DNA from: Ehretia macrophylla
Lineage: Eukaryota > Streptophyta > Magnoliopsida > Boraginales > Ehretiaceae
Assembly (NCBI GenBank): GCA_037974665.1
Contig: CM075764.1
Coordinates: 91,270,825 to 91,334,824 of the forward strand
Length of the DNA stretch: 64,000 nucleotides
Direction of reading: 5' to 3'
Of this stretch, positions 2,292 to 64,000 are shown in pieces (the stretch's first letter is position 1; each line of letters starts with the position of its first letter). The notes beneath the pieces were generated by a model. That model made no database searches and had not been told where the DNA came from. It saw only the letters and a program-made list of their open reading frames with translations. The position numbers were made by a program, and so were the translations under genes.

Positions 2292-3941
2292 GAAGAATAT
2301 TGTATGTAGGTAACCATTTTACTTGTCATGTTTTGTTACTATACCATAATTTATATAAAATTACCAAAATAATTTTGAAGATTGCAAGCAGTTTCTATCG
2401 AATCATGATGGATTGTGTTTAAGAAACTTACTGCAGATTGCTCGAACCACGTAATCTAATCAATGCGCCATTTCTATTTTTTGTTAGTTAAGAGAGACAG
2501 ATGGAGGAATTCTCGTATAGTCAACAATTCCTTCTTTTTCTCCACCATTGAAGACCAAGAAATGCCAATCAAGAGAAATCATACACGACATGAGTCTAGG
2601 GTAAAGTTAAAATAGATACGGTCAAGAGAAATCGACTTAACTTCGAGTGAGCACCATTGGCATTTGTGGTTAGACAGGTGACAATATGTATGACGTTGAC
2701 CTTTCGCTATATCAAACGAGGGAGAGAGCTTTGATTCTCGGGACTAGTGATTAGTAGTTTCAGAATTAATGGTAGGATTCATAGGCGGAGGAGGCTACCT
2801 GTATGTTGCATGAGGGGGCTAAGATGCACTGAAAGTCGTGATTAACAACCTCGCTACATGAATAAAAAATGTAAGTGAAATCAACTAAATCAACATAGGA
2901 TGATTCATCATAAATGAGTTCAGAATCAGGCTAGGATTGTATCATTACTCCCGGACTAGTTGAAATTTTGGACCATTAACTTATTAGTCGACTTGTTCAT
3001 ATAGGTATTCCGAAAAACCAACAGAGTTAAGATGGGCCAAACTTTGGGCAGCTGCTTCGTTAGTTCCATTCCATTGTAGTTATAAAAAAAAAAGATAAAA
3101 TAGTGAGACATTCCGAGGGTGATTGTCCAGAGTTTTTTGTTTTGATTCTCTCATTTCTTTACGTGAGATGTATTATTTCCTGTTAAAATAGTATAAAATT
3201 ACTTTTGTATCCTTCCTTTTTTTCCATCTTTTCCTTTCTTGTCCTTTTTCCTTTTCCTGTTCGTTTTTCTATATTTTTTGGCAGCATAATACATTTGCAG
3301 CAATGAAGAATTTTTGTAGATTTAGAAAGATTAACTAGCAGAATGGAATGAAACCAAAAAGGAATCAAGAATTATACATTTCGTGAGAGACAAAGGTGCC
3401 GATTTGCATAGAATAAATTCTTGAAATATACTACTAGTTCAATAACATATATATATATATATTGGTGGATCTGATGGATAAATTGGTGGATCTAACAATT
3501 GAAACCATGTAGAAACTTGCTAGTATAGAAATAATCAAGTAACTTAACTTTCAAAACAGAAAACCAAACGACTGGGCCATATTCAAAATGCAACTTTTAT
3601 TCACAAAACCTTCACAAAAAACCCTTCTTTGCCCATTTCCTCATCTGGGTCATCTTCACTGCAAAAAGACTTTTTTCACACAATTTCTTGTGTATGTTGC
3701 CTTGAAGTTGCAATCTTTATTCATACCAACTTAACAAAATGCAATTCCTCATAACGATCATCTTAAAAATAGCCTTTAAAACACCCAATCTTGTTGTTTG
3801 CTAGTTCGTTGAAGGCTTCCAAAATGGGATCTATTAAAGGATTGATAGATGTCTTGAATGAGTTAGGTGGAGGAGAAGCTTGGTTGTGTTGATGGTGATA
3901 TGGGAGAATCGTCGAATAAAGGATTGGAGGAAAGAGTGTAA
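2292..3941. other. Intergenic, partly duplicated flank
   Basis: No supported gene. About 140 bp at 3030-3170 match 53,823-53,965 upstream of copy E, so they belong to the duplicated unit. A short AT microsatellite lies at about 3450-3462. The minus-strand frame at 3183-3368 is low-complexity. Confidence 0.5.
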
Positions 3942-12963: not shown

Positions 12964-15101
12964 TCAAGAAAATGTAATTTTACATTCTACAGATCCTCGG
13001 AGAAACTTTACTACCTTCTGAAGCAACTGAAATCTAGCCTCAAGGTCAAAGGAATCGGCAGCCTTTATAATCATTGTTCTCAAGACCTTATCATTCTCCA
13101 GAATATAAGCTACCATTGCAAGTTCATCTTCCAGGCCTGCGAATCCATGGAATGACATTGTTTTAAGGCATGACGACAAGCATATAGGCACTTTCTCAGG
13201 TTTGTTCCAGCTTGTCACATGTGTGCCGTTATGATCAAAATCCTATACCAACAAAAGGCAGATACTTTAAGAACTTTGCCGATTAAGAAAGAACCACCCC
13301 CTTCCCTTCCCTCTCTTCATGGGTTTTTCTGACCTTTGAAAAGCTAAGAAACATTAGCTTGTTCGAGCCTTCGACCAAGTTCAGCAGCGAATTCCATTTA
13401 TAGCAGTTGGCTTTCATAGTTAACCGAATTAGTCTCGGAAAGCTCGGGCATGCACCTGCATAGCTTAGAGCCTTCATAGAAGGAAAAAGAACAGAATTAA
13501 TAAGAAATAAAACTGTTTTCATGTAATCAATAAGAAATAAAACTGTTTTCATGTCCCATATTAATAGTCACGCATCAAAAATCCACCACGTGCAGACAAA
13601 TATACAGATCCAAACAAAAAATTAGCAGCTAACCTACAACTTCTTGAGCTAAGAAATTGACAATGTAAAATACTTGAGTGAATCACTTAATATTTTGGTA
13701 ACTGGAAATCATTGTGTCCGTTGCTGTACTCTTTGTGTTTCAAGTATTTTTCATACAATGCATATCAGAAATAAATCACATATCTTAAATGCTTTGGTGA
13801 TGATGCTTTGCTCAGAACTAACCCGAGAGCATGGACTCATGTATCAAGTGGTCACCCATCTAAAATCAGAACGAGTTTGTTGTATTTGTTTATTGTGTTT
13901 AACATCATGGTTTGACCAAACAATTTCTTTTGAGATTCCATGAAATTTTGGCATTTACTTATGAGTTGAAAATTAGAATTATATTTGGTAGAGTATTGAT
14001 ATCACATGGCTTTAGTATATAAAGTATTTTCTCTCTTGAGTTTTTAGTGTAGAATTCCCCCTTAGTTGAAGTGAATGTCAATCTTTGCATCAATAGATTG
14101 TACTTCTAATAATGAGATTACACGACGAGAAGTAGAAGAAATCAGTAATGCTAAAAAATCACAAAATTATCAAACTCAATTGAATAACAACAATGTAAGA
14201 TAAAAAAAAATTAGCAGTTTACCTCAAGAATATGACCACTTAAAGATAGATGCTTCACGTTATAAACCCCTTGAAGAAGCTTAACTACAAGATTGGAATA
14301 ATGATCATTATGAATAAGCGTAACATCTTCATCTTCATCTTTTATATTTATGGTGTGAAGTCCTGCTTCGTCTAGCAAGCATAAGTTTTCAACAGAGAAG
14401 TCCCTTGAAAAACTGTCAAGTAGATTAAGGTATCTAAGTGCAGGAGCATCTATCTCAAGCTTGTCGCCAAGCTCTCCCAAGTAGAGGATGTTTGGATCGT
14501 AAAATTCAAAGGTGAGACTTGTCAATGTAGGAGAACATATGATACAGGTGACCGCATTGTCGTCTGTAAATCTTACAATATACAGAGTCTCAAGGGACAA
14601 ACAACCAGATATAAGGCTTTTGAACCTCTAGCGTCTTACAAGTGAAAGCACTACAAGGAAACAGAATGCGTGAATCATAAGGGTAAGGATCGTCCACGAA
14701 AAACTCAAGCACTTTAAGATTCTTAACAACTGCAGCAGCAATCCAAGTAGTAACATCGTATACCTTACAATGTCCAGAGATCACAAGAGAAAACTTGTGT
14801 ATGGTTTGTTGATTGAGGAATAATAAAACCTTGTTAACAAAATGTGCAAACTTAATCTCTCTTTCTTTTGTCGCGTCCCGACTAGACCGGCTGGTGAAAT
14901 CATCAGTGAAGTTGAGATTGTGGATATTTGTCCAGAGGAATTTCCACCTCCTTGATAACACGCTAGTGGCTACAACATCCTCTGTTGGAAGAAGGGACAG
15001 TATGTGACAAAGAAAAGAATCTGGCAAGTTACTAAGCCTATCAACATCATTTGAAGGTGTTGGCTCTTATTAAGGCCACAAGTTCTTCCAAGTGACGACA
15101 T
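12964..15101 (-). pseudogene. F-box/LRR/FBD gene copy C (pseudogene)
   Basis: Exon 1 at 15,101-14,223, exon 2 at 13,471-13,334, FBD exon at 13,242-12,964, with a 91-bp second intron (donor GTCAGA, acceptor TATAG). The F-box is well preserved (LPDSFLCHILSLLPTEDVV, SRRWKFLWTNI). The FBD end reads AYILENDKVLRT then FQLLQKVVKFLRGSVEC. Damage in exon 1: two extra bases in the N-terminal stretch before the F-box (near 15,070), and a deletion of about 115 bp in the LRR part (junction near 14,618) that leaves the two halves in different frames. The first intron contains an inverted block (13,688-14,112). Exons 2 and 3 look undamaged, so decay is concentrated in exon 1. Confidence 0.85.
13688..14112. 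other. Inverted segment in the first intron of copy C
   Basis: This block is the reverse complement of intron sequence in copies B, D and E. For example, ATTTTGGTAACTGGAAATCA here appears as TGATTTCCAGTTACCAAAAT near 46,780 and 52,125, and CAATAGATTGTACTTCTAAT here is the reverse of the sequence near 46,207. Flanking sequence on both sides keeps the normal orientation. The breakpoints are estimates to within about 10 bp. Confidence 0.75.
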
Positions 15102-45458: not shown

Positions 45459-47801
45459 TTAAGAAAATATAATTTTATATTTTGCAGATCCTCGGGGAAA
45501 CTTTGATACCTTCTTAAGCAACTGAAATCTAGCCTTGGGGTTAAGGGAATAGGCAGCCTTTATAGTCATCGTCCTCAAGACTTTAGCATTCTCCAGAATA
45601 TAAGCAACCATTGAAAGTTCATTTCCAGGCTTGTGAATCCATGGAATGACATTGTTTTAAGGCATGACAACAAGCATATAGGCATTTTCTCAGGTTTGCT
45701 CCAACTTGTCTCATGTGTGCCGTTATGATCAAGATCCTATAGCAACAAAAGGCAGAGACTAAGAACTTTGCCAATTAAGAAAGAACCACCCCCCTTCCCT
45801 TTTCTCTATTCATTGGTTTTTCTAACCTTTGAAAACTAAGAAACATTAGCTTGTTTGAGCCTTCAACCAAGTTTAGCAGCAAATTTCATTTACAGCATTT
45901 GGCTTTCACAGTTAACCGAGTTAGTCTCGGAAAGCTTGGGCATGCACCTGCATGGCTTAGAGCCTTCATAGAAGGAAAAAGAATAGAATACATAAGAAAT
46001 AAAACTTTGTTTATGTCCGATATTAATAGTTTTGACGATACTATACAAGAAAATATCTAGGACATGAGACAACAAGCATAAAAAATCCACCACGTGCAAA
46101 CAAATATACAAATCCAAACAAAAAATTAGCAGCTAACCTACAACTTCTTGAGATAAGAGATTTCACAATGTAAAATACTTGAGTAATTTTCTTATACAAA
46201 TAACATTAGAAGTACAATCTATTGATGCAAAGACTGGCATTCAGTTCAACTAATGGGGAATTCTATACTAAAAAGTCAAGAGAAAAATATTCATGTTAAT
46301 TGAGGTATTAAAGGTTATCTCAAGCATGATCGAGATCTTCAGAGTGAAGAAGGAAATCTATCGTACATCTTAGAGGGCATATATTGGAAAACAAGATCCT
46401 AGATGGAAAACAAAAGAAACCAAGAAAAAGAAGTCATTTTCAACCCTCAAACTTCTTCTTCGACCCTACCACAAGATCCTATATTGGAATAAGTCCAAGA
46501 GTACCCAGTTTAAAAGAAGATCTTACTCGGTCAGAAAAAAGGAATTTGTAGTGAACTTCCAAGCTCTCAAGCTAGTTCAGCAGCAAAAAATCATTAATAA
46601 AGGATTTTGGATATGCTTACTTATTTCAACGAGGATAGAAAAGAAAATCAAGAATGCTGTTGATCATTAGTTTTGAGTCTTTACAAGAGACAAGTCTGGT
46701 TCTTGGATTATTACATTGATACCTTTTATTTTATGGTCAAGTACTTGAAACAGAGAGAGTATGGCAAAAGTCGCAATGATTTCCAGTTACCAAAATATTA
46801 CAAAGTAATGACATTACACGAAGAATAACCAGAATGTAAGATCGATAATAATCAGCAGTTTACCTTAAGAATATCACCCCTCAAAGAGAGATGCTTCACG
46901 TTATGTACTCCTAGAAGAAGCTTAACTACAACTTTGAGGTAACGATCATAGTCAATCACCCCGGAACATTTACTTCATCTTCTATATTTTCGGTCCAAAC
47001 ATTTGCTTCATTTAGCGAGCGTAAGTTTTCAAGGGAGAAATTCCTCGAGAAATGGTCAGATATATCAAGGTATCCAAGTGTAGGAGCATTTATCTCAAGC
47101 TTGAAGGGAAGCTCTGCGGGGAAGGAGCTCTCTCCTTGGTAAAAATAGAAGGTGAGACTTCTCAATGTAGGAGAAGATATGGTAAAGGTGTCCACACTGT
47201 CGTATACATCTCTGTCAATATAGAGAGTCTCCAGTGATGAACAGCCAGATATAAGCTTACGCACAGATTCATCGCATTGGTAAATAACCGATTCGAGACG
47301 AAGGGTTTTGAGAATTGGAAGACAAACCAAACTTGGGACATTGAGACACATAACACCGTCTAATTTAAGAACCCTTCGTCTACAAGGCAACTGAATGGTT
47401 GGATAATAAACCACGCAGCCAGTAGTCATACGAAACTCAAGCACTTTAACTTTCCTAGCAACTGCAGTGGCTGTCCATGTAGTAACATCATACGCCTCAC
47501 AATCGTACTCGATCACAAGAGAAAACCTGTCTATGCATTGTCCATTGAGGAATAGCAAAAACATGTTAACAAAATGTGCAAAATTATTTTCATTCTCATT
47601 TTCATCACTGAAAATGAGATTACGGATATTTTTCCAGAGGAATTTCCACTTTGTTGATAGAAAGCTGGTAGCCACAGCATCCGCTGTTGGAAGAAGTGAG
47701 AGTATGTGACAAAGAACAGATTCTGGCAAGTTGCTAAGCCTATCAACATCATTTGAAGCTTGTTGCCGCTTATGGCCACAAGATCTTGCAAGCGATGACA
47801 T
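45459..47801 (-). pseudogene. F-box/LRR/FBD gene copy D (pseudogene, F-box intact)
   Basis: Exon 1 at 47,801-46,864, exon 2 at 45,963-45,827, FBD exon at 45,736-45,459 ending in TAA where the others have TGA. Exon 1 is open for 281 codons: leader MSSLARSCGHKRQQ, F-box with LPESVLCHILSLLPT and STKWKFLW, and LRR segments (LNVPSLVCLPILKTLRLES). A deletion removes a few codons of the TCKTLEV segment while keeping the frame. Two extra bases near 46,960 (CACCCCGG where others have CAGCGG) shift the frame before the splice donor. Exon 2 lacks one base near 45,835 and the FBD exon one base near 45,622. As read it could give only a truncated F-box/LRR protein. Introns about 900 and 90 bp. Confidence 0.85.
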
Positions 47802-49126
47802 ATTAATCGGATGAGTGGTGATAGCACTATGACGGAAACTCTTTTGATTTTGATACCTTTTCTGGGTTTTTGGCTTCCGAGTGAAAACGCCAACTTGATT
47901 TTAGTTGTTTATGTAGGGAAGATGAAGGGTTTACGGGGGTGACTGGTGAGAATTTCACAAGTCATATCGAGGTATGCGCCCAAACAAACCATCTAGCTCC
48001 CTTTTTTCAATGTTCGATGCATAATTGGAAAAATAACTCTTTTTTTTTTTTTTTTTTTTTTTCTCTTAAGTTTTTGGGGGCAAGGATAATTTTAAGTAAG
48101 GATGACAATTGGTGGATTTATGGGGGAGGGTATTCGGTGACAAATTAGAAATGGGATAACACTTGTACCTTGTCTTGTCTTGAGATATTTTTGATTTTAC
48201 GAGAGTTATTTTGTCGGAAAAAAAGTTATGGGGCTGAGTAAAAGTTAATTTTCAATCTTCGTGCAAGATCAGGAAAGGCGACCGCATATGTTTAAAGTTA
48301 TTTTTTTATATTTACTTCTTATATATGTACTAAAATTTAAAGCTTATTAATTTAATAATTCCCGACAAGAAACTTACTACAAAATATGAAACTTCAAGCA
48401 AAATGCTATATTGTATAAATACTATAACTTTTCTTCCCCTAATAGATATATTCTATTTTAGGTTAATATCATTTTAATTACTTAATATATATATATATAT
48501 ATGTTACACTTTTCCTCTCATATTTACTTTGTATCACTTAGCCATTTTGTGTTATTAGGTAAAAATAAGAGACATTTTTGTTCATTTGTTATAAACGCAA
48601 TAAGGGACATTGTTAACTATTGAGTGATATAAACTAAAGTACTGTATCAGGAAAAAATATTAAACTGTATATACATTGAGAGAGTAAAATAATATTAACC
48701 TAACATTAATAACAATTTATCCTTTAATATATAAAGTATAAGATTTTGTGCCCTGATATTTATTTTATATCATTTAATACCTTTGTATTATCAGTAAAAA
48801 CAAAGGGTATTTACGAATATTTGTTACTTTTTTAAAAACTATAAGGGACATGCTTGTTAACTAAATCACAGAAAGAGGATAAGATTATAAAATAAGCATT
48901 AGGGTAAAATATTATATTGTACACACATTGCGGGATTGAAGTAATTTTAACTCTATATTTTATGATTAATAATGTATAAATATCCCCTTTTCAAAAGTTT
49001 GGCCTTCCGTTAAGGTTTTGAAATCTATGCCCTTAATTTTATATGGGAATAATGAGATCAAGTTTAAACCCTAAAATTATCATTCATCCTAAACCTTTTG
49101 TGAAAAGTTATAACAAGTAATAAGAT
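47802..49126. other. 5' flank of copy D
   Basis: The first 150 bp match the other copies' 5' flanks. A 25-bp T run lies at about 48,039-48,063 and a TA microsatellite at about 48,485-48,503. 48,640-49,117 matches 16,680-17,160. No gene. Confidence 0.5.
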
Positions 49127-50466: not shown

Positions 50467-53247
50467 TCAAGAAAATATAATCTCACATTCTTCAGATCCT
50501 CGGTGAAACTTTGAAACCTTCTGAAGCAACTGAAATTTAGCTTTAAGGTCAAGAGGATAGGCAGTCTCTATTGTCATCGTCCTCAAGACTTTAGCATTCT
50601 TTAGAATATAAGCTACCATTTCAAGTTCATCTTCTAGGCCTTCGAATCCACGCATCGACAGTGTCTTAAGGCATGTCAACAAGTATCTAGGCACTTTCTC
50701 AGGTCTTCTCCATACCTTATGGCCTCTCCATATACTTCTACTGACCTTTGAAAAGGTAAGAAATTCTAATTTATTGGAGCCTTTAACCAAGTCTAGCAGC
50801 GAATTCCATCCATCGTATTCGGCTTTCACAGCCAATCGGGTTAGTCTCGGAAAGCTTGGGGAGACACCTGCATGGCTAAGAGCCTTCACAAAATGGCCAA
50901 AAAATTAATTAAAAATTGAAGTGTGTTTCCATATTAATAGTTTAGAGGATACTGTACACTACAATAGCGAGAAGGTGAGACAACAAGCACAGCATCTCCA
51001 CCACGTGAAGCAGAATATACAGATCTAAATAAAAAACTTAGCAGCAACTAATCAACAACTTCTTGAGCTAAGAAAATTCAAAATGTAGAATACTTGAAGA
51101 AATTCATTTACACGAATAACATCAAAGAACCAAATGGACTCTTGGGAAACTGCAGACGCTACACGGCAAAGTGCAAGGGAGTTAATCCCAGTACTTTAAA
51201 TCCCGATACTTATCCATAAACAGGGGATTGCGAAGTATTAAAATCATGCTAAGACTAAACATATTGTATAAGATGATAGGGGATAATAGTCTGTAAAAAC
51301 TTCCATCTTTTGACTGCGGCAGCTATCCATTGCACATTTGGTGGAAAGAAGAAGAGAATTTGATTGTTCCAGCTTGTTGGTGACTTCATTTTATAATTTG
51401 ATAGTGCATAAGGATTCAATATACACATAAAATTTAGGACTTGATAAGAATAGTGCAGATGACTATTATAAACATCATGCATATGCACAAAAGTATATAG
51501 AGAAAAAGACATTTATATACGTATTATTTCTAGAGAAAAGGTACCTAGGCAATTAGCAATTAAACTGAGTTGTATGTGGCTATTGTCAAGTTGTATACAA
51601 TCTTGTAGAAAATAATATTTTCTATGTTCAATATTCAAAGTTTTATGGTAGATCACAAGCTAGAAGATATTGACTAGCAAACATAACACTGGCGATTAGT
51701 CGATACAGTAGTTCATGTTCATCACTGCATAAATTATATCTGCATCCTTTTAAGAATTGAAAAAGAAAATTATACACGAGAGACAAATAGGTAAAGCCAT
51801 GTTATATCAATACTTTACTATTCGAAATTCTAATTTTCATTTCAGAAGTAAAGGCCAAAATTTCCCGGAATCTGATAAGCAAGGAAGTTGCAAGACAGAA
51901 GAAGAAATTGTTTGGTCAAACCATGATGTTAAACACAATAAATAAATACAACAAACCCGTGTCTCATTTTAGATATGCGATTTATTTCAAAGAGGATAGA
52001 GAATGCAAAACAAAAATGATGTTGCATAATTTTGAGAAATCAGTCTTGTTCATGCGTTGTTAAACTGATATGGGGTTGTATGAAAAGTACTTGATGCACA
52101 AAGAGTACAGCAATGGATACAATGATTTCCAGTTACCAAAATATTACAAAACAATGAGATTACATGAAGAGAAGTAGAAGAAATCAGTAACGCTAGAAAT
52201 TTCACAAAATTATCAAACTCAATTGAATAACAACAATGTAAGATAATAAAATTAGCAATTTACCTCAAGAATATCACCACTCATAGATAGACGCTTCACG
52301 TTATAAACTCCTTGAAGAAGCTTAACTACAATATTATTGGAGTAATGATCAACATCAATCAGCGGAATATCCATATATTTTATATTTATGGTCTCAACTT
52401 TTGCTTCATCTAGCAAGCACAAGTTTTCAACAGAGAAGTCGCTCGTCAAAAAGTCAGATAGATCAAGGTATCTAAGTGCAGGAGCATCTATACAAAGGTT
52501 GTAGTCAAGCTCTTCAGGATCGGGGCTCTCTGATCAGTAAAATTTGAAGGTGAGATTTCTCAATGTAGGAGAAGATATGGTAAAGTTGACCACATTGTCG
52601 TATACATCTCTTTGAATATACATAGTCTCCAACGATGAACAGCCACATATAAAGTTTCGGAAAGATTCATCGCTTTGGTAAGTCACTGATTCAAGATGAA
52701 GTGTTTCGAGATTTGGAAGACAAACCATGCTCGGGACATTGAGATTCTTAACACGAAATAAATCAAGAACCTCTAGTGTCTGACAAGTAAACAGACTACA
52801 AGGCAACTGAAAGCGTGATTCAGAAGCGTCAGGATTGCTCACCCAAAACTCAAGCACTTTAAGATTTTTAGAAACTGCAGCGGCTATCCAAGTAGAAACA
52901 TCATACACCTCACAAGATGATGATGTGATTACAAGAGAAAACTTGTCTATAGTTTGTTGATTGAGGTAAATCAAAACCTTGTTAACAAAATGTGCAAACT
53001 TAATGTTTCTCTCTTTTGTCTCACCCCAATTGGACCGTATGGGTATATCATCACTGAAACTGAGATTATGGATATTTGTCCAGAAGAATTTCCACCTTGT
53101 CGATAGCAAGCCAGTGGCCACGGCGTCCTTCGTTGGAAGAAATGAGAGAATGTGACAACGAATCGATTCTGGCAAGTTGCTTAGCCTATCAACATCATTT
53201 GAAGCTTGTTGGCGCTTATGGGCAGAAGATCTTGCAAGCGATGACAT
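50467..53247 (-). pseudogene. F-box/LRR/FBD gene copy E (one in-frame stop; otherwise complete)
   Basis: Exon 1 at 53,247-52,264 (984 bp, 328 codons) and exon 2 at 50,883-50,467 (417 bp with TGA stop) join in phase 0 to 466 codons, a normal length for the family. Leader MSSLARSSAHKRQQ; F-box LPESIRCHILSFLPT with STRWKFFW; LRR segments LNVPSMVCLPNLETLHLES and CSSLETMYIQRDVYD; exon 2 LRR FPRLTRLAVKAEY; FBD end VAYILKNAKVLRTMTIE, FQLLQKVSKFHRGSEECEI. The only lesion seen is a TGA at 52,534-52,536 (codon 238), with the same frame open on both sides. The short second intron of the other copies is absent here and the two exons are fused in frame. Could be a recent pseudogene, a variable allele, or a sequence error. 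Confidence 0.8.
50884..52263. other. First intron of copy E
   Basis: Non-coding; blocks match the introns of copies B and D. The donor on the minus strand is GAG|GTAAAT; the probable acceptor is TGTGAAG before GCTCTTAGCC. The frames at 51,255-51,512 and 51,757-51,945 are not supported. Confidence 0.5.
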
Positions 53248-53589
53248 ATCAATGATCCGATTGGTAGTAACACTTGGATGGAAAATTTAGAGGCTAAAGA
53301 CCGAACGAAAATTCTTGGATTTTGATAGCTTTTCTGGGTTTTGGCTTGTGAACAGAAACGCCAACTTGACATTGCTGCTAGTTAACTATATAGGTAATAT
53401 GTGGGGGAAGATGAAGGGGTTAATGGGATGAGAACCTCGAAAGACAAATTACTCAAATATAACCCCTTAGAACCCAAAAGTCATATCTAGTGCCATTGTT
53501 CAATGTTGGATGCATAATTTGAAAAACGACTGTTTTTAAACAATTTTCTTGGTGGAAATTAGCTACAACAAATTCAAGCAACAACAGGA

Positions 53590-55566: not shown

Positions 55567-58500
55567 CAGGGGCGGAATTAGGGAGGGGCGAGGGGGCATG
55601 CCTTAAAAAAAAAATGTATATATTTTTTAAAATATATAGGTTCAGCCCCCCATAAATATTGAAAAATTTGTCTCAAGTATACAAGTTCTGAGTTAGTTTG
55701 GTGGTTAGCTATATTTAAGTTTAGTCTTATGTCCTATATTCGAGTCCCCTTTTATGGGGGAAAAAAAAAAGATGAAAGGGTATAGAAGTGTCACGTGGGC
55801 ACTTGGAAACGAGTCAAAAAGCAGATATCAATTGTTTTTTTTTAACTGATCAATGAAAGGCTAGGGAAATGCCCACGTGGTACTTCCCCAAACCCATTAG
55901 CTGGAAACGCAAAAGCATATATCAATTATGCTTTTTTTTTTATAACTAATCAATTGATCTGATCGTTGATCAATTGATCAAAATAACTTATTTCTTTTGA
56001 AAATAAAAACCAACAATTTCTAAATAACCTTTTCTTTTAGAAAAAAAAAAACTAAAGTACCATATCTTCTTGACTTCTTCAAGTTTTCAAGACTTCAACT
56101 CTCAAATCTCTTTAGAAATTTCAATTTTTCCAAAGATATGTATATCTTTTTAAAACATAACTATCATTTTTTTTCCTTAATTTAAATTGTATATATTAAA
56201 TTGTAAATGATTATGTATATATTTGTGTATATAAGTGTATTATGTATATTCATATTTTGTTTAGAAAATCAGTTAATAGTTCTTTGAGATTCAATCAGCC
56301 AATTAATTAATATTGACTGTCTATGATAGTCTGTTTAATTTGTATGGAGAAGAAAGTTCAACTTGAAGCCTAAAGCCAATTAATTTTCAATTTGAAAGCA
56401 TTTTTTTGGTTGAATTTAGCTGTTGATGTTTCGAAAGTTAAATTTTGGTGATCAAAAGCACTGTTTCACTTTGCATTATTGGTTAACCACATCATTACAG
56501 TTGTGGCATGTTTCAGTTAGCTTTTGGAGTGTTATCTGTAATTACTGAAGGGCGACTCTAGAACATAATTTTTGAATTAATCTTGCGACTGATCAACTAT
56601 TATTTGAACATAAAGTGTCCGGCTTGCAGGAGTGTTCTTTCCCTACCTATAAGAATTGAGAACTAGCTTCTGAGTGATGATGAGAAGAATATAAGAAGCC
56701 AAATGAAAGAAGAATGATATCCCACACCCTTTTTAAACTTCTTAATGACAGGTTGCAATTCCAGAATAATTGCAAGTGTGAGGTGCTTAATGGACGATTG
56801 CATTTTCCACCTGTAATTTCATAACTGAGCCCCTTTTGCATTGAAATTCTAATACGATTTTGATTAAATTGTTTTTCATTTTTAATGTCTGGTTATTGGT
56901 TAAACTTCAAAGTTGTAATGAGACATGACGAATATGAATGATTAAATTTTGGAACTAAAAGAGTTGAATTAAAATATTGATGATCAAGATGACATGTTTT
57001 TTTTTTTAAATTGAGTGAGTCCGTTGATGCAATTTTCAGAAAGAAATGCCAAAGCATGTTTCTCCAACATACCCAAAAAAAGTAGAAGGAAAATATCGTA
57101 AAATAGCACATGTACCTTAACAACTTTGTTGATTGCTCCATTTCATCAAATAACCAAACGGAAAAAAAGGGGAAAAAGCATATGATTATCTTTTATGTAA
57201 ACTGGCATGATATATATATATATATATACCACCAATGTGGCTCTAAAGAAGCTAGAGGAAAAAATAATGACTATATGAATTAGTGTTCATTTTATATATA
57301 TATATATATATGTCTAGTATTCATATATATGTTGATTTTATTTTTGCTCTTAGTTGGTCTCTTTGCCATTGTCCTTCTCGTCATCTCAGAAGACAGAAAT
57401 AGCTGATTCAAGTGATCAAACAAGTGAGTTTAAGCTCAACTCTCTTTCTCTATGTTGGACAATATTGCCTATCATTTCATCATATTATTATTTATTTGTT
57501 AGAAATTACTTTCAGCCTTCAGGTTAAAATATGAGTAAGTCAAAAACAATTTATTCTTTCTTTGAAAGAAAAGAAAAGGTTGTTGACTCATAGCCCGAAG
57601 AACAATCTTCTGTACCTAATAGTGATACAAATGTGATTTTAGAACCTCAAACAAAATTATGAAGGATTGAAAATAAGACAATTGATATGAGTTCTTTAGT
57701 GCGTGATCTGGGTTTACGCTTTCAAATTTGGGAGTATCCAGTGAATCAAATAGATGAAATTCGTAGAGCATATATACAATTTGGTCCATATCATCATATT
57801 CAATCAGATTATCCATTATCTGGACAAGAGAGTCATCCACGCCGATTTCAAGCTCATTGGTTCAAAATATTTCCTTGGTTAGAGTATTCACCTGCAAAAG
57901 ATATTGTGTTTTGTTTTCCTTGCTACACTTTTGCAAAAGAATCATATGAAAAAACTGGATTTGATGTATTTACTATTAAGGGATTTAAAAATTGGAAAAA
58001 AAGTAGGTAGAAAAGATTGTGCTTTTTTTATCTCACGTGGGGAAGGATAGCATGTCAGTCCATAATTCAGCTTCCAAATATTGTGAGAATTTGAAGAACC
58101 AGTCTTCTCATATTGAAAAGGTGATGCAGAGGCAAACTTCTTCACAAATTTTGAATAATTGCTTATGCCTTAAAGCTTCCATAGATGTTGTTCGGTACCT
58201 TACATTTCAAGGATGTGCTTTTAGAGGGCATGATGAAAGTTCGAACTCAATGAATCAAGGTAACTTTCTTGAAATGATAAAGTTGTTAGCATCTTACAAT
58301 GAACAAGTGCATGCAGTTGTTTTGGATAATGCGCCACAAAATGCTAAATATACAACACATAAAATTCAAAAAAAAAATTTATCTGTGTTGGCTAGAAATG
58401 TGCAAAATAAAATTCGTGATGAGATTGACGATGCAATGTTTTGCTTAATTGTTGATGAATCTCGGGATGAATCTAAAAGAGAGCAAATGACTCTTGTTAT

Positions 58501-60133
58501 AAGATTTGTTGACAAGGATTTGTTAGAGAGAGATTTCTTGACTTGGTACAACGTTAACTCTTAAAAGAGAGATTTCTTGTGCATTGTCTCATCATAACCT
58601 CAATATTCTTAACATTTGTGGTCAAGGATATGATGGAGCTAGCAATATGCATGGAGAATGGAATGAGTTACAAGTTTTGTTTCTTAAAGATTGTCCTTTT
58701 GCTTATTATGTGCATTGTTGGGCTTACCAGTTGCAATTAGCTCTTATTGCTGAATCTAGAGAAGTTTCTGATATATATACCTTTTTTGAAAACTTGAATT
58801 TCATTGTTAACATTGTGGGGCCTTCTTCCAAAATGAATGATGAATTACAAGCTGCCCAACTAACTGAAAATGCACATTTAATTGAATGTGGTAAGATTGA
58901 TACCGGTAGAGGAGCCAATCAAATAGGAACTTTACAACGTCCTAGAGATACTAGATGGGGTTCTCATTTTAAGTCAATTTGTAGTTTGATAAGGATCTTT
59001 GGTGCAACTTGTGTAGTTCTTCAAAACATAGCTATTGAAGGATCTATATACTCTCAACATAGAGATGCTACTTTTGCTCTTAAGGTATTGATGTCATTTG
59101 ATTTTGTATTTATCTTGCATGTGATGAAAGAAATCATGGGGATTACGAACACACTTTGTTAAGTTTTGCAACAAAAATCTTAGGACATTTTAAATGCTAT
59201 GCATATGGTTTCAAGTACAAAATTATTATTACAAAAGTTGAGAGATGTTGGTTGATAAATTTTCATAGAGAATGTGACATCATTTTGTTTGCATAAGAAT
59301 ATACAAGTTCCTGATATGAATGCTTCTTACTTTGATGTACTCCGATCTTGTCGTTGAAATGATAGTATAACAGTGGAGCATCATTACTGGATAGATATCT
59401 TCACAGCTGCTATAGATCAACAATTACAGGAGTTAAACAATAGATTTAGTGAGCAAGCAACTAAGCTTCTTACTCTTAACATAACTTTGGATCCAAGATA
59501 TGGTTACAAGTCATTTTCAATTGATGATATATGCAAACTTGCTAAAAGATTTTATCCTTTTGACTTCTTCGAACAAGAGATGATTCATCTAAGTTATCAA
59601 TTGCAACATTACAAGCTTGATGTGCGTAATCATCCTGATTTGAAAAGCTTGCCTATCTTAGCAGCTCTATGTAGAGGATTGATGGAAACTGGAAAATCAA
59701 AAGCTTATCCGTTAGTTGATAGATTGATACGGTTGATTTTAACTCTTCCTGTCTCAACAGCAACTACAGAACGAGCTTTCTCTGCTATGAAAATTATCAA
59801 AACAAGGCTTTGCAACCGGATGAAAGATGACTTTCTTAGAGACAGCTTGATTATCTATATTGAAAGGGAAATTGCTAAAGATGTGTCTGTTGATCTGATA
59901 ATTGATGATTTCTATACCATGAATAATAGATGAGCCCAACTTCATTGACAAAATCGGTAAATATTACTTTACAAGTTTACATAATCTTATATCATTTTGT
60001 TAAATAGTATTATTTACATGTGTTTTTTTTAACTAAGTTTCTTTACATGTGTTTATGTTTAAAATATATTATATCATTAATTTTTTTAATTAAATCTCGA
60101 CCCTCCTATATTAAAATCCTAGATCCGCTCCTA
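55567..60133 (+). mobile_element. hAT transposon (4567 bp) with decayed transposase
   Basis: Terminal inverted repeats CAGGGGCGGA and, reversed, TAGGAGCGGA. A perfect 8-bp duplication TCCACTTT lies at 55,559-55,566 and 60,134-60,141, as expected for hAT. The transposase pseudogene is on the plus strand at 57,531-59,933. Subterminal sequence has C-rich and poly-A tracts and two CCACGTGG-type blocks (about 55,792 and 55,871). TA microsatellites lie at about 57,210-57,228 and 57,294-57,311. Confidence 0.92.
57531..59933 (+). pseudogene. hAT transposase (TTF-type zinc finger and hAT dimerisation domain), broken
   Basis: ATG at 57,531 opens MSKSKTIYSFFERKEK, followed by in-frame TAG (57,591) and TGA (57,660). 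57,687-58,010 carries a zinc-finger-like block (HPRRFQAHWFKIFPWLEYS, then CFPCYTF). A frame change near 58,000 leads to 58,019-58,564 (SLIVDESRDESKREQ-like core: CLIVDESRDESKREQMTL), another near 58,555 to 58,584-59,162 (GQGYDGASNMHGEWNELQ; HCWAYQLQLAL). Further stops occur between 59,163 and 59,372. The C-terminal hAT dimerisation domain at 59,373-59,933 is well preserved ([33 protein letters not shown]). Resembles plant TTF-type/DUF4371 hAT proteins. Not functional as read. Confidence 0.88.
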
Positions 60134-60141
60134 TCCACTTT

Positions 60142-60598
60142 GCATTTATTTTGCAAAACATTCTTCCAAGCACAAGTCAACTTTCTTTCATGATTTATAT
60201 ACATATTTCGTAGTATATAAACACATATCTATAGTTGACCATGGCGTATAAAGAATTTAGAATTCTGAATTGTGACAATATTCTAATTTTATTATTTCGG
60301 AATTACCATTTGACATGCAAATTGTATATTAGGGAAGAGAGAGAGAGATAAAGAGAATAAATGTAAAGTCAACTTGTGATTTAATAAAGATGGGAGAGTC
60401 GACACAAACATGAAGCACTACATGGACGTGCATAATCCTCAAAAGATTATGTATTGCTTTATATGCTAGAACACAAAGGCTTTTTCTAATAGAGGCTTGC
60501 TTTTTCAAGTTCCACCTTCTAATCTATACAAAGTGTTGCCCGTTTTCTCTCAGCATCTCTACATGCTCCTCCTTGGCCCCTACCAAATGATCCAAAGG
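60142..60598. other. Spacer between hAT element and inverted repeat
   Basis: No gene or repeat boundary seen apart from a short GA run near 60,338. Confidence 0.4.
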
Positions 60599-62639
60599 TG
60601 TTACGCCCCAATACCATCCTAAAGAACAGAGCTAGGGCGTGACACGACGTGATCTCAAGAAGTGTAATTTTTTAAGCACGCTAGACTATACTAACATACC
60701 AGAAGAACAAACAAGAGTACTACATTCCACAATATTTCAAAACTCTCTTACAATCCTTGTCAAATTAGAAATTCAAGCTTAATCCACAAATTATTACATC
60801 AATTAAGTCAAAACAAACTTAATTAGAAAATACCAAATATCCAAAATTCAAATCTCATAGTTTTAATTATTTCTCCCAGTTGACTACCCCGCTCATAAAT
60901 CAAGGCATCACCCTTACTCTGTCGAATCTGAAAAGAAATCAGGCAGAAGCAAAACTGGTAAGCGAACAAAAAGATCAGTAAGAGGAAAACTTTCCCAAAT
61001 AATATGGTAATGATGATGAAATAGACGAACAAAATACTCATAACGAATGAACGAACAGACAAACGAATAAAGTTACAAATAACGAACAAATGGATGGACG
61101 GACGAATAAGGGCACAAATATATATATTAAAATAATTTTAAAAATGATAACAAACTAACAGATCATAGTTCTCAAACTGTATCGGAAGATAGGCATTATG
61201 CCCCCATCGGGCCAGATAGGATGATGAGTATTACGCCCTCATTAGGCAAGAGATTTCTTCAGTCGAACAAATTCATATCAAGGTATACAGTTGAGAATAA
61301 GTCAAATACATATTTCATAGTTTGAATAATCAAAATAAAAGTAGTAGTAATAATAGTATCAGTACTACTAAAATAATAATAATAATTGATTTATTGTCCA
61401 GGAAAAATATATAAAAAAAAGACAATACTAATACATTGACCGAAAATCAAAATGAGTGAGATATAAATACTTATCAAGATATACGAATGGATCACTTCGG
61501 ATAATCTAAAATAAATAAATTATTCCGAAGTACAATAGTCTCGTTGATCGAACAAATGAATGAAATGTATAAACACACGACATAAGAACTAAATACTCTA
61601 GGAAATTAGATAGGATTAAATGGACAAATAGAATAAAAATACCGTATGAACCAATAAAAATATTATATGAGCTATCATAAATATTAGAAGAAATATAATT
61701 TTATTTTGAGTTTCCATGGAAGTAAAAAGAAGAAAAATAGGAAACTCAAGGAACGAGGCATTTTTGGTCATGACATGAATATAATCAAACTTTTGTAAAA
61801 CGAACAAGACATACATTTAGTTCAACGATTTAAAGTTGAATGAAGTTCTTTTTCAACGAACATAATTTTCGATGAGTAATATTATGTATGGAATAATTGA
61901 GGAGAACGAACACCTAAATACAACAATGAAACTGATACGAATACCTGAACGGAATTTATTCCGAACATATTCAAATGAAGACTAGTAATTCAAAGGGAGA
62001 CTAGTAGTCAAAGTGAAAGAATCCCACTTAGCCCAATTTTACGGAAGTATTATCTTTGTTCAGTCACAAACCTACAAATTTAATCAAAACTCTCATTTCG
62101 TTAACTCTCAATTTACTTAGTCATCCTTCCCTAAAATATTCTAGAATAATTAATTCATCCAAAATTATATAAATCAAAAGCCTATAATCTTACCTTGTTG
62201 AAATGGTTCTAAATATTATGCATTAATTTGTTTCTTCTTCTTCTTCTTCTTCTGCTATTGGTACTGCCGAGAGAAAGAGAAAAAAAGAAGTGAAATGAAA
62301 TTAGAACAATTTGCACTGCAGATGAGCTTTTCGCTCATTTTGGAATCTATAATGTTTGGTTTAAATAAAACCATTTTCTCAATTGGGGTGACTAAATTAT
62401 TATGAGTGGGAAAAATTGGCTAAAGTGGTAAAGTAAGTCAAAAAAAAACTCTTAAGTGGCTCGGAATTTGGTTTACGGGTGGAGAAAAATTTGGCTAAAG
62501 TGGCATAAGAAGTCCAAAGCTCAAAAGTGGCTTGGAAATTTGGATTCTAAGTGGAGAAAAATTTGGCTAAAGTGGCATAAGAAGTCAAAAGATCAAAAGT
62601 GGCTTGGAAATTTAGCTTCCAAGGCCATGTGCATTTATA
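60599..62639 (-). repeat. Gypsy-type LTR, left arm (2041 bp)
   Basis: Read on the minus strand it begins TATAAATGCACATGG (TG mutated to TA) directly after the polypurine tract and ends GGGGCGTAACA at 60,599. It contains two tandem copies of an about 88-bp block with GGCTAAAGTGGCATAAGAAG (about 62,480-62,610). A CTT microsatellite lies near 62,233-62,253. Confidence 0.75.
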
Positions 62640-62774
62640 TCCTCTCCCCCTTAAAAGGAGTTTCGCCCTTAAAACTTATCTTACCTTGGTTTTCAAATAG
62701 CTTTGGGTATTTGGCACGAGCCTCCTCTTCAGGCATCCATAGAGCTTCTCTAGTTGTTTGGTTGTGCCATCTTA
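62640..62774 (-). pseudogene. Gypsy pol tail (chromodomain end), left arm
   Basis: On the minus strand it reads RWHNQTTREALWMPEEEARA then KYPKLFEN, matching the right arm. It then runs into a CTTTTAAGGGGGAGAGGA polypurine tract. It starts abruptly at the palindrome centre. Confidence 0.75.
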
Positions 62775-62789
62775 TTCCATATGTGAAAG

Positions 62790-62923
62790 TAAGATGGCAC
62801 AACCAAACAACTAGAGAAGCTCTATGGATGCCTGAAGAAGAGGCTCATGCCAAATATCCAAAGCTATTCGAAAACTAAGGTAAGATAAGTTTCGAGGGCG
62901 AAACTCTTTTAAAGGGAGAGGAT
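62790..62923 (+). pseudogene. Gypsy pol tail (chromodomain end), right arm
   Basis: Reads KVRWHNQTTREALWMPEEEA then HAKYPKLFEN and a stop at 62,876-62,878: the C-terminal chromodomain of plant Ty3-gypsy integrase (WHNQTTREALWEPE pattern). The polypurine tract AAAGGGAGAGGA follows. The longer frame from 62,456 is only this tail joined to left-arm sequence read antisense. Confidence 0.78.
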
Positions 62924-64000
62924 GTAAAAGAACATGGCCTTGGAAACTAAATTTCCAAGCCACTTTTGAGCTTTTGACTTCTTATGCCACTTTAGCCAAA
63001 TTTTTCTCCACTTGGAAACCAAATTTTCAAGCCACTTTTGAACTTTGGACTTCTTATGCCACTTTAGCCAAATTGTTCTCTACCCGTAAACTAAATTCCA
63101 AGTCACTTATGAGTTTTTTTTGACTTATTATACCACTTTAGCCAATTTTTCCCACTTAGAATAATTTAGTCACCCCAATTGACAAAATGGTTTTATTTAA
63201 ACCAAGCATTACAAATTCCAAAATGAGACAAAAGCTCATCTGTAGTGCAAATTGTTCTAATTTCATTTCGCTTCTTTTTTTTTCTCTTTCTCTCGGCAGT
63301 ACTAATAGCAGAAGAAGAAGAAGAAGAAGAAGCAAATTAGTGCATAATATTTTGAACCATTTCAACAAGGTAAGATTCTAGGCTTTTGATTTATATAATT
63401 TTGGATGAATTAATTATTCTAGAATATTTTAGAGAAGGATGACTAAGTAAATTGAGAGTTAACGAAATGAGAGTTTCGATGAAATTTATAGGTTTGTGAC
63501 TGAACAAAGATAATACTTCCGTAAATTTGAGGTAAGTGGGATTCTTTCACTTTGACTGCTAGTCTTCCATTGAATTACTAGTCTTCATTTGAATATGTTA
63601 ACTCATATAATACTTTTATTGGTTCATATGGTATTTTTATTCTATTTGTCATTTTCGTCCTATGTAATTTCCCATAGTATTTCGTTCCTATGTCGCGTGT
63701 TTATACATTTCATTCATTTGTTCGATCAACGCGACTATTCTACTCTGGAATAATTTATTTCTTTTAGATTATCCAAAGTGATCTATTCGTATATCTTGAT
63801 AAGTATTTATATCTCACTCTTTTTTTTTTTTTGTCAATATGTTAGTATTTTCTTTTTATTTTATTTTTCTTGTACAATAAATCAATTATTATTATTATTT
63901 TAGTAGTACTGATACTATTATTACTACTACTTTTATTTTGATGATTCAAACTATGAAATATGTATTTGACTTGTTCTCAACTATATACCTTGATATGAAT
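62924..64000 (+). repeat. Gypsy-type LTR, right arm (partial)
   Basis: Starts TGTAAAAGAACATGGCC after the polypurine tract and continues past the window edge. Reverse complement of the left-arm LTR, with the 290-bp deletion near 63,600 and small differences. Confidence 0.75.

Follow-up and report, generated by a model that had tools for sequence, protein, structure and literature searches.

The long inverted repeat that begins at position 60599 is the middle of one Ty3/gypsy element of 7,635 bp (60599-68233), and the whole element is flanked by AAAGG as a perfect 5-bp target-site duplication (TSD). The element is real and well bounded, and it most likely entered the genome by one integration. 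We propose that it is probably one aberrant Ty3/gypsy reverse-transcription product, in which strands were changed twice and which was integrated once. The window is the whole stretch of 64,000 nucleotides that was analysed (C1:91270825-91334824 of the Ehretia macrophylla assembly GCA_037974665.1, 1.58 Gb in 20 contigs), and its numbering is continued for features beyond its right edge. A second stretch, L009 (window 60001-70000), was used to read past this edge; it is identical to the window where the two are shared, and N is absent from both stretches examined. The stretch 60-80 kb was compared with itself, which showed that a 2-kb LTR is present three times (A, B and C). The element and its borders comprise the following features:

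60594..60598, no strand: TSD AAAGG, left copy, reading CCAAAGG/TGTTACG
60599..62639, minus strand: LTR A, the 3′ LTR and left palindrome arm, 2,041 bp, from sequence self-comparison
62640..62774, minus strand: PPT and pol 3′ end of the left arm, from comparison with 28 other family loci
62774..62775, no strand: junction 1, the centre; left-arm pol ends CCATCTTA and the right arm starts TTCCATATGTG, with a 1-nt overlap
62775..62922, plus strand: pol 3′ end and PPT of the right arm, including the former 15-bp "spacer" (62775-62789)
62923-64666 (the window holds up to 64000), plus strand: LTR B, the inverted inner LTR
from 64667, minus strand: gag, beyond the window
66179-66190: PBS complement GCTCTGATACCA, beyond the window
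66195-68233, minus strand: LTR C, the 5′ LTR, with TG...CA ends, beyond the window
68234-68238: TSD AAAGG, right copy, beyond the window, reading TTTACA/AAAGG

Along the plus strand, the order is LTR A (-), PPT and pol end (-), centre, pol end and PPT (+), LTR B (+), gag (-), PBS and LTR C (-). Since gag, PBS and LTR C adjoin LTR B, and AAAGG flanks A and C, the palindrome forms the interior of a single rearranged gypsy element. A search for a duplication around the palindrome had been suggested; the duplication surrounds the larger element instead. A stand-alone palindrome with its own TSD is ruled out, the right arm continuing into gag and the TSD flanking the larger element.

The LTRs of the element are about 2.04 kb long; its PBS is TGGTATCAGAGC and its PPT is GGGAGAGGA. 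LTRs A and C are in direct orientation with 90% identity, and the U3 of LTR A starts with TA, not TG. Missing from LTR B are an internal segment of about 284 bp (corresponding to left-arm 61680-61963, and present in A, in C and in a related copy on C17, L003) and the final 7 bp of U5. Apart from the LTRs, what remains of the coding part is gag and a short pol end in each arm; most of pol is absent. The gag piece matches the Pfam families Retrotrans_gag (3.8e-10) and Ty3_capsid (6e-7; 29.5 bits, barely over the cut-off of 29.1). Among the relatives, the pol piece of L071 matches Integrase_H2C2 (2.9e-20), with an rve (integrase core) match below the cut-off only, and L031 matches SH3_Tf2-1 (3.2e-28), a domain that lies directly ahead of the pol tail in relatives. 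By its LTRs, PBS, PPT, 5-bp TSD and gypsy-type gag, together with the integrase domains seen in relatives, the element is assigned to the Ty3/gypsy LTR retrotransposons. The original prediction named a chromodomain, and we take the pol tail to resemble one; the relatives gave no Pfam chromodomain match at E<=0.1, and the 31-aa pol tail itself gave no Pfam match at E<=0.01.

Just left of the element, at window 58007-59933, there are the remains of a hAT transposase gene, with a Dimer_Tnp_hAT match (8e-11) in 59358-59930. Similar open frames are repeated on the minus strand at 31-1082, 14590-15066, 46956-47900 and 52534-53286 of the window, and presumably represent an F-box/LRR gene cluster.

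The inverted repeat from 60599 was correctly recognized as a real, non-chance structure extending beyond the window, and its arms consist, as had been read, of a gypsy pol end and an LTR, with the PPT between them. Six ungapped pieces in register (I1-I6) are 86-95% complementary, the innermost arms being 15 nt apart; pieces I7-I10 of the same search reflect 72-bp repeats out of register or low-complexity sequence. A gapped alignment of 61964-63599 against itself gave 92.9% over 1,642 bp. The arms are therefore about 90-93% identical, and the description "near-perfect" does not hold. The left arm is 60599-62774. The right arm starts at 62774/62775 and ends at 64666, not near 64.96 kb, because about 284 bp of the LTR and the 7 bp that close U5 are missing. 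These differences also bear on a possible assembly artefact, a hairpin chimera of reads. Palindromic chimeras occur in long-read libraries, and the general existence of such reads agrees with this explanation; yet a hairpin at the read level would give identical arms, and here about 7-10% of positions differ between the arms, the right one lacks the 284-bp segment, and both stretches examined are free of N. We regard an artefact as highly improbable.

The centre of the palindrome was compared with other members of the family. The junction 1 query gave 41 matches; 30 loci were cut out, two of which are the own locus, so that 28 relatives of the 39 other matches were examined. In all 28, pol continues uninterrupted through the junction point, reading CATCTTA, then a stretch resembling CTTTCACGTATGGAAT, and onward into pol; the element reads CATCTTA/TTCCATATGTGAAAGTAAGATGG. 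The left-arm stretch 62640..62774 has 89.6-98.5% identity to the same stretch in 28 family loci. Because the relatives read on through this point into pol, the 15 bp taken earlier for a spacer between the arms (62775-62789) belong to the pol of the right arm. The breakpoints of the two arms are 15 nt apart in pol, the right arm reaching further upstream; contrary to the earlier statement, the arms do not begin at the same pol residue. With a 111-bp query around the centre, 80 matches were obtained, and among the 40 of 66 candidates that were scored the centre is spanned by the own locus only, on both strands. L003 runs on into ordinary pol past the centre point and is therefore not a plain copy of the left arm.

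At junction 2, arm B ends ...AATATTGGGG, 7 bp short of the LTR end as known from A, and is joined to gag TCCAACTTGAGC through a TGGGG microhomology. The query for this junction gave 40 matches, 39 of them elsewhere, and gag reads through the junction point in every one of the 29 of these that were cut out and examined. TGGGG stands directly ahead of this point in 21 of the 29 relatives, four of which have TTGGGG, as in the U5 of A; in the other eight it is not intact, with one base different, which counts against the explanation we prefer. No further copy of junction 2 was found among the 40 of 215 candidates scored, where the remaining matches cross the junction by at most 8 bases, about the length of the microhomology. 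Autointegration made by integrase at this junction is disfavoured, given that the U5 end is without its 7 bp and microhomology is present.

An example of what nested insertion looks like in this family is found at C20:3169769-3186627, where a same-family element (nested part C20:3175-3185 kb) lies in opposite orientation within gag. This nested copy has a U5 complete to CA (...GGGGCGTGACA), a U3 starting with TGTAATGCAT, a start shared by several other copies, and a TSD of its own, TGCAG, on both sides. Such a nest has the topology of a precursor from which palindromes may arise through deletion. It shares with the element studied here the family, the gag target and the opposite orientation, and differs in its full LTR ends, its own TSD and the absence of a palindrome with adjoining pol ends; junction 2 is unlike it.

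The C20 copy gives some substance to an explanation by nested insertion and deletion, in which a family member was inserted in opposite orientation into the gag of an ordinary element (A...C), and a hairpin-bypass deletion then joined the pol ends. The required topology exists on C20, and hairpin bypass could have produced the near-symmetrical breakpoints. However, A and C would be expected as twins and B as a stranger, whereas an A+C clade is rejected (p 0.0007) and the distance B-C is no larger than A-C. In addition, B is 7 bp short at its U5 end and shows microhomology to gag, where the C20 copy has a full end and a TSD; and two insertions, a large symmetrical deletion, an end deletion and LTR conversion would all be required. 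We therefore consider this course of events unlikely. The part of the original prediction that favoured one fold-back or template-switch event over two insertions is supported, since there is one AAAGG TSD, the LTR divergences are equal, the centre is near-symmetrical, junction 2 shows microhomology and the C20 nested copy looks different; the palindrome as a separately inserted unit has to be given up.

The three LTRs are equally diverged, with K2P distances of 0.0857 (A-B), 0.0930 (A-C) and 0.0886 (B-C), and ML path lengths from the common node of 0.045 (A), 0.044 (B) and 0.048 (C). Across 1,660 sites, the changes away from the outgroup majority other than C>T number 53 in A, 55 in B and 50 in C; the C>T changes are unequal (52, 61 and 72, respectively), which counts against the preferred explanation. 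At a substitution rate of 1.3e-8 per site per year, the LTR divergence would correspond to about 3.4 million years. The equal age of the LTRs is relevant to a repair after integration, in which a break in an ordinary element was followed by MMBIR template switching through other family copies, with a turn in pol. The microhomology at junction 2 and the single nucleotide at junction 1 suit this mechanism, as does the different lineage of LTR A from C, but the equal age would be a coincidence, and the repair must have spared both outer LTR ends and the TSD. Such a repair seems improbable to us.

The kinship of the three LTRs is less simple than their distances. LTR A is sister to the C17 copy, L003, with support 100/99, and no 5′ LTR of L003 was found within the 9.5 kb upstream examined. 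Sites with two-against-two patterns join A with L003 against B and C in 26 cases, A with B in 5 and A with C in 3; the 26 sites are spread over the LTR between positions 17 and 1883. An AU test of A+C, A+B and A+B+C, clades that were chosen after the site patterns were known, rejects all three (p 0.0007, 0.002 and 0.001, respectively). B and C as twins were dropped as a candidate: the B+C clade is unsupported (49/0), and 7 of the 10 changes shared by B and C are C>T.

The anatomy, the TSD, the junctions and the equal divergence of the LTRs are directly observed, whereas the timing of the switches in reverse transcription, the identity of the growing strand and any participation of two different RNAs are inferred. 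In the proposed course, the growing cDNA strand in the particle would copy RNA through the LTR and the pol end, leave its template there for the complementary cDNA strand, and copy this second template back through PPT, U3, R and U5. Copying would halt 7 nt ahead of the LTR end, pairing at TGGGG would move the strand to gag, and the PBS end would then be finished as usual. The product would be LTR-gag-[inverted LTR + pol end]-pol end-LTR, whose outer LTR ends are normal, so that integrase could insert it with a 5-bp duplication. A simple self-priming of a single minus strand, left arm first, is disfavoured, as the right arm has 15 nt of pol absent from the left. Against the proposed strand switching, junction 1 has an overlap of only 1 nt, and a jump from one molecule to another would account for its near-symmetry only if the two strands had ended at about the same position.

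If one RNA had been copied, A, B and C would have been equal at insertion; since the clade A+B+C is rejected, either two RNAs or a later conversion is needed in addition. Provided that strand switching in reverse transcription is accepted, we tentatively consider a special form of it, with two RNAs in one particle, A coming from one and B and C from the other, next to one RNA whose product later underwent gene conversion involving A and L003. The 26 sites that group A with L003 along the LTR speak for two RNAs. Intermolecular plus-strand transfer explains asymmetric LTRs in HIV-1, according to the parts of PMC9278108 used here, and recombination of co-packaged RNAs was inferred for Onsen in the corresponding parts of PMC5668417. 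Against two RNAs, the prediction that B equals C lacks support, the B+C clade having 49/0, and the equal distances of A, B and C from one node look like those of copies that were identical at insertion, a point in favour of a later exchange with L003.

Other inverted or complex copies occur in the family. Opposite-orientation LTR neighbours within 12 kb were found at three loci among the matches listed, which include at least 47 places with the U5 half of the LTR: the present element, the C20 nest and C13:74.015 Mb. The last of these (L073, C13:74012600-74019200) has its centre near 3260 and contains two nearly full LTRs, U5 to U5, reading TTTTGGGG-AGTGA-CCCCAAAA (GGGG-AGTGA-CCCC), with the 14-bp PPT retained on one outer side. 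Its arms belong to different sublineages, and L073 may therefore be two separate insertions; its flanks gave no match to the loci with which they were compared. Another copy, L013 (C16:69038262-69041735), has the order pol end-PPT-LTR-PBS-gag (about 300 bp)-PBS-LTR, the last two inverted. Its arms are 587 bp long and 96.4% identical, with the limits of plus-strand strong-stop DNA; CAAGG adjoins the right end and is also present 66 bp ahead of the locus start, and no 5′ LTR was found within 7.4 kb upstream. To judge from this pattern, strand switching during reverse transcription is a supported, if putative, process in the family. L013 and L073 are weaker cases than the element at 60599-68233, a TSD being established for neither. 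In addition, three same-orientation LTRs about 7 kb apart at C13:56625265-56640250 may be a direct template-switch or recombination complex, and L029 (C14:14735735) and L025 (C14:14816479) are near-copies separated by about 81 kb; each contains an inverted LTR fragment, which in L025 lies about 0.8 kb past the pol end.

Complex LTR retrotransposons with three LTRs and one 5-bp TSD have been attributed to template switching in one reverse transcription followed by one integration (Sabot & Schulman 2007, PMC1950507). The present element shares with these complexes a third, internal LTR and a single TSD around the whole. In those complexes, however, the third LTR lies between two complete cores and the outer LTRs are highly similar, and an inverted middle LTR is not described; here the core is reduced to gag (-) and a short pol end in each arm, the LTR in the middle is in inverted orientation, and A and C (K2P 0.093) are no closer than A and B or B and C, with A+C rejected. 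The HIV-1 asymmetric-LTR proviruses, as presented in the parts of PMC9278108 considered, resemble the element in outer LTRs that were unlike at integration, for which intermolecular plus-strand transfer between co-packaged genomes is proposed, and inversions are reported in a few; unlike in our element, the asymmetry arises through deletion, and those parts describe no inverted third LTR. Tandem arrays are the subject of PMC7215508, in the portion consulted. Among the papers listed in literature searches, no title or abstract opening describes a third LTR that is inverted within a single TSD. The element is surprising in shape and as yet modest in consequence; it is a fully bounded case, in which the TSD and the two inner junctions are defined, of one integrated retrotransposon with a third LTR in inverted orientation. 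For such elements, dating by the divergence of the outer LTRs may mislead.

Transcription from LTR C through to LTR A would yield a hairpin whose arms measure about 1.9 and 2.2 kb. Both arms are old and have diverged. Perfect pairing with the left arm is seen for 391 of the 1,857 right-arm 21-mers, and 1,048 of the 2,156 left-arm 21-mers are found exactly in 67 other loci examined, some of them overlapping. Since such a transcript would hold both arms, and arm 21-mers pair and recur in other loci, silencing of the family by the putative hairpin transcript is possible. In maize, the transcript of Mu killer, in which a transposon end is duplicated in inverted orientation, could likewise fold into a hairpin; Mu killer is a DNA-transposon derivative with demonstrated silencing, whereas the present element is an LTR retrotransposon with a predicted hairpin. 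The bounded structure of the element suggests that one integration event may be enough to produce an LTR-driven hairpin, as opposed to a nested insertion that is rearranged afterwards. A wider idea, which we hold to be doubtful, is that the family repeatedly makes fold-back copies (the present element and L013, perhaps also L073) through strand switches at predictable positions, the PBS end and the U5 end, and that those integrated as LTR-driven hairpins silence the family from which they came. If this were true, the silencing trigger would be a by-product of reverse transcription itself, and if such products recur, they would be a testable source of natural silencing triggers.
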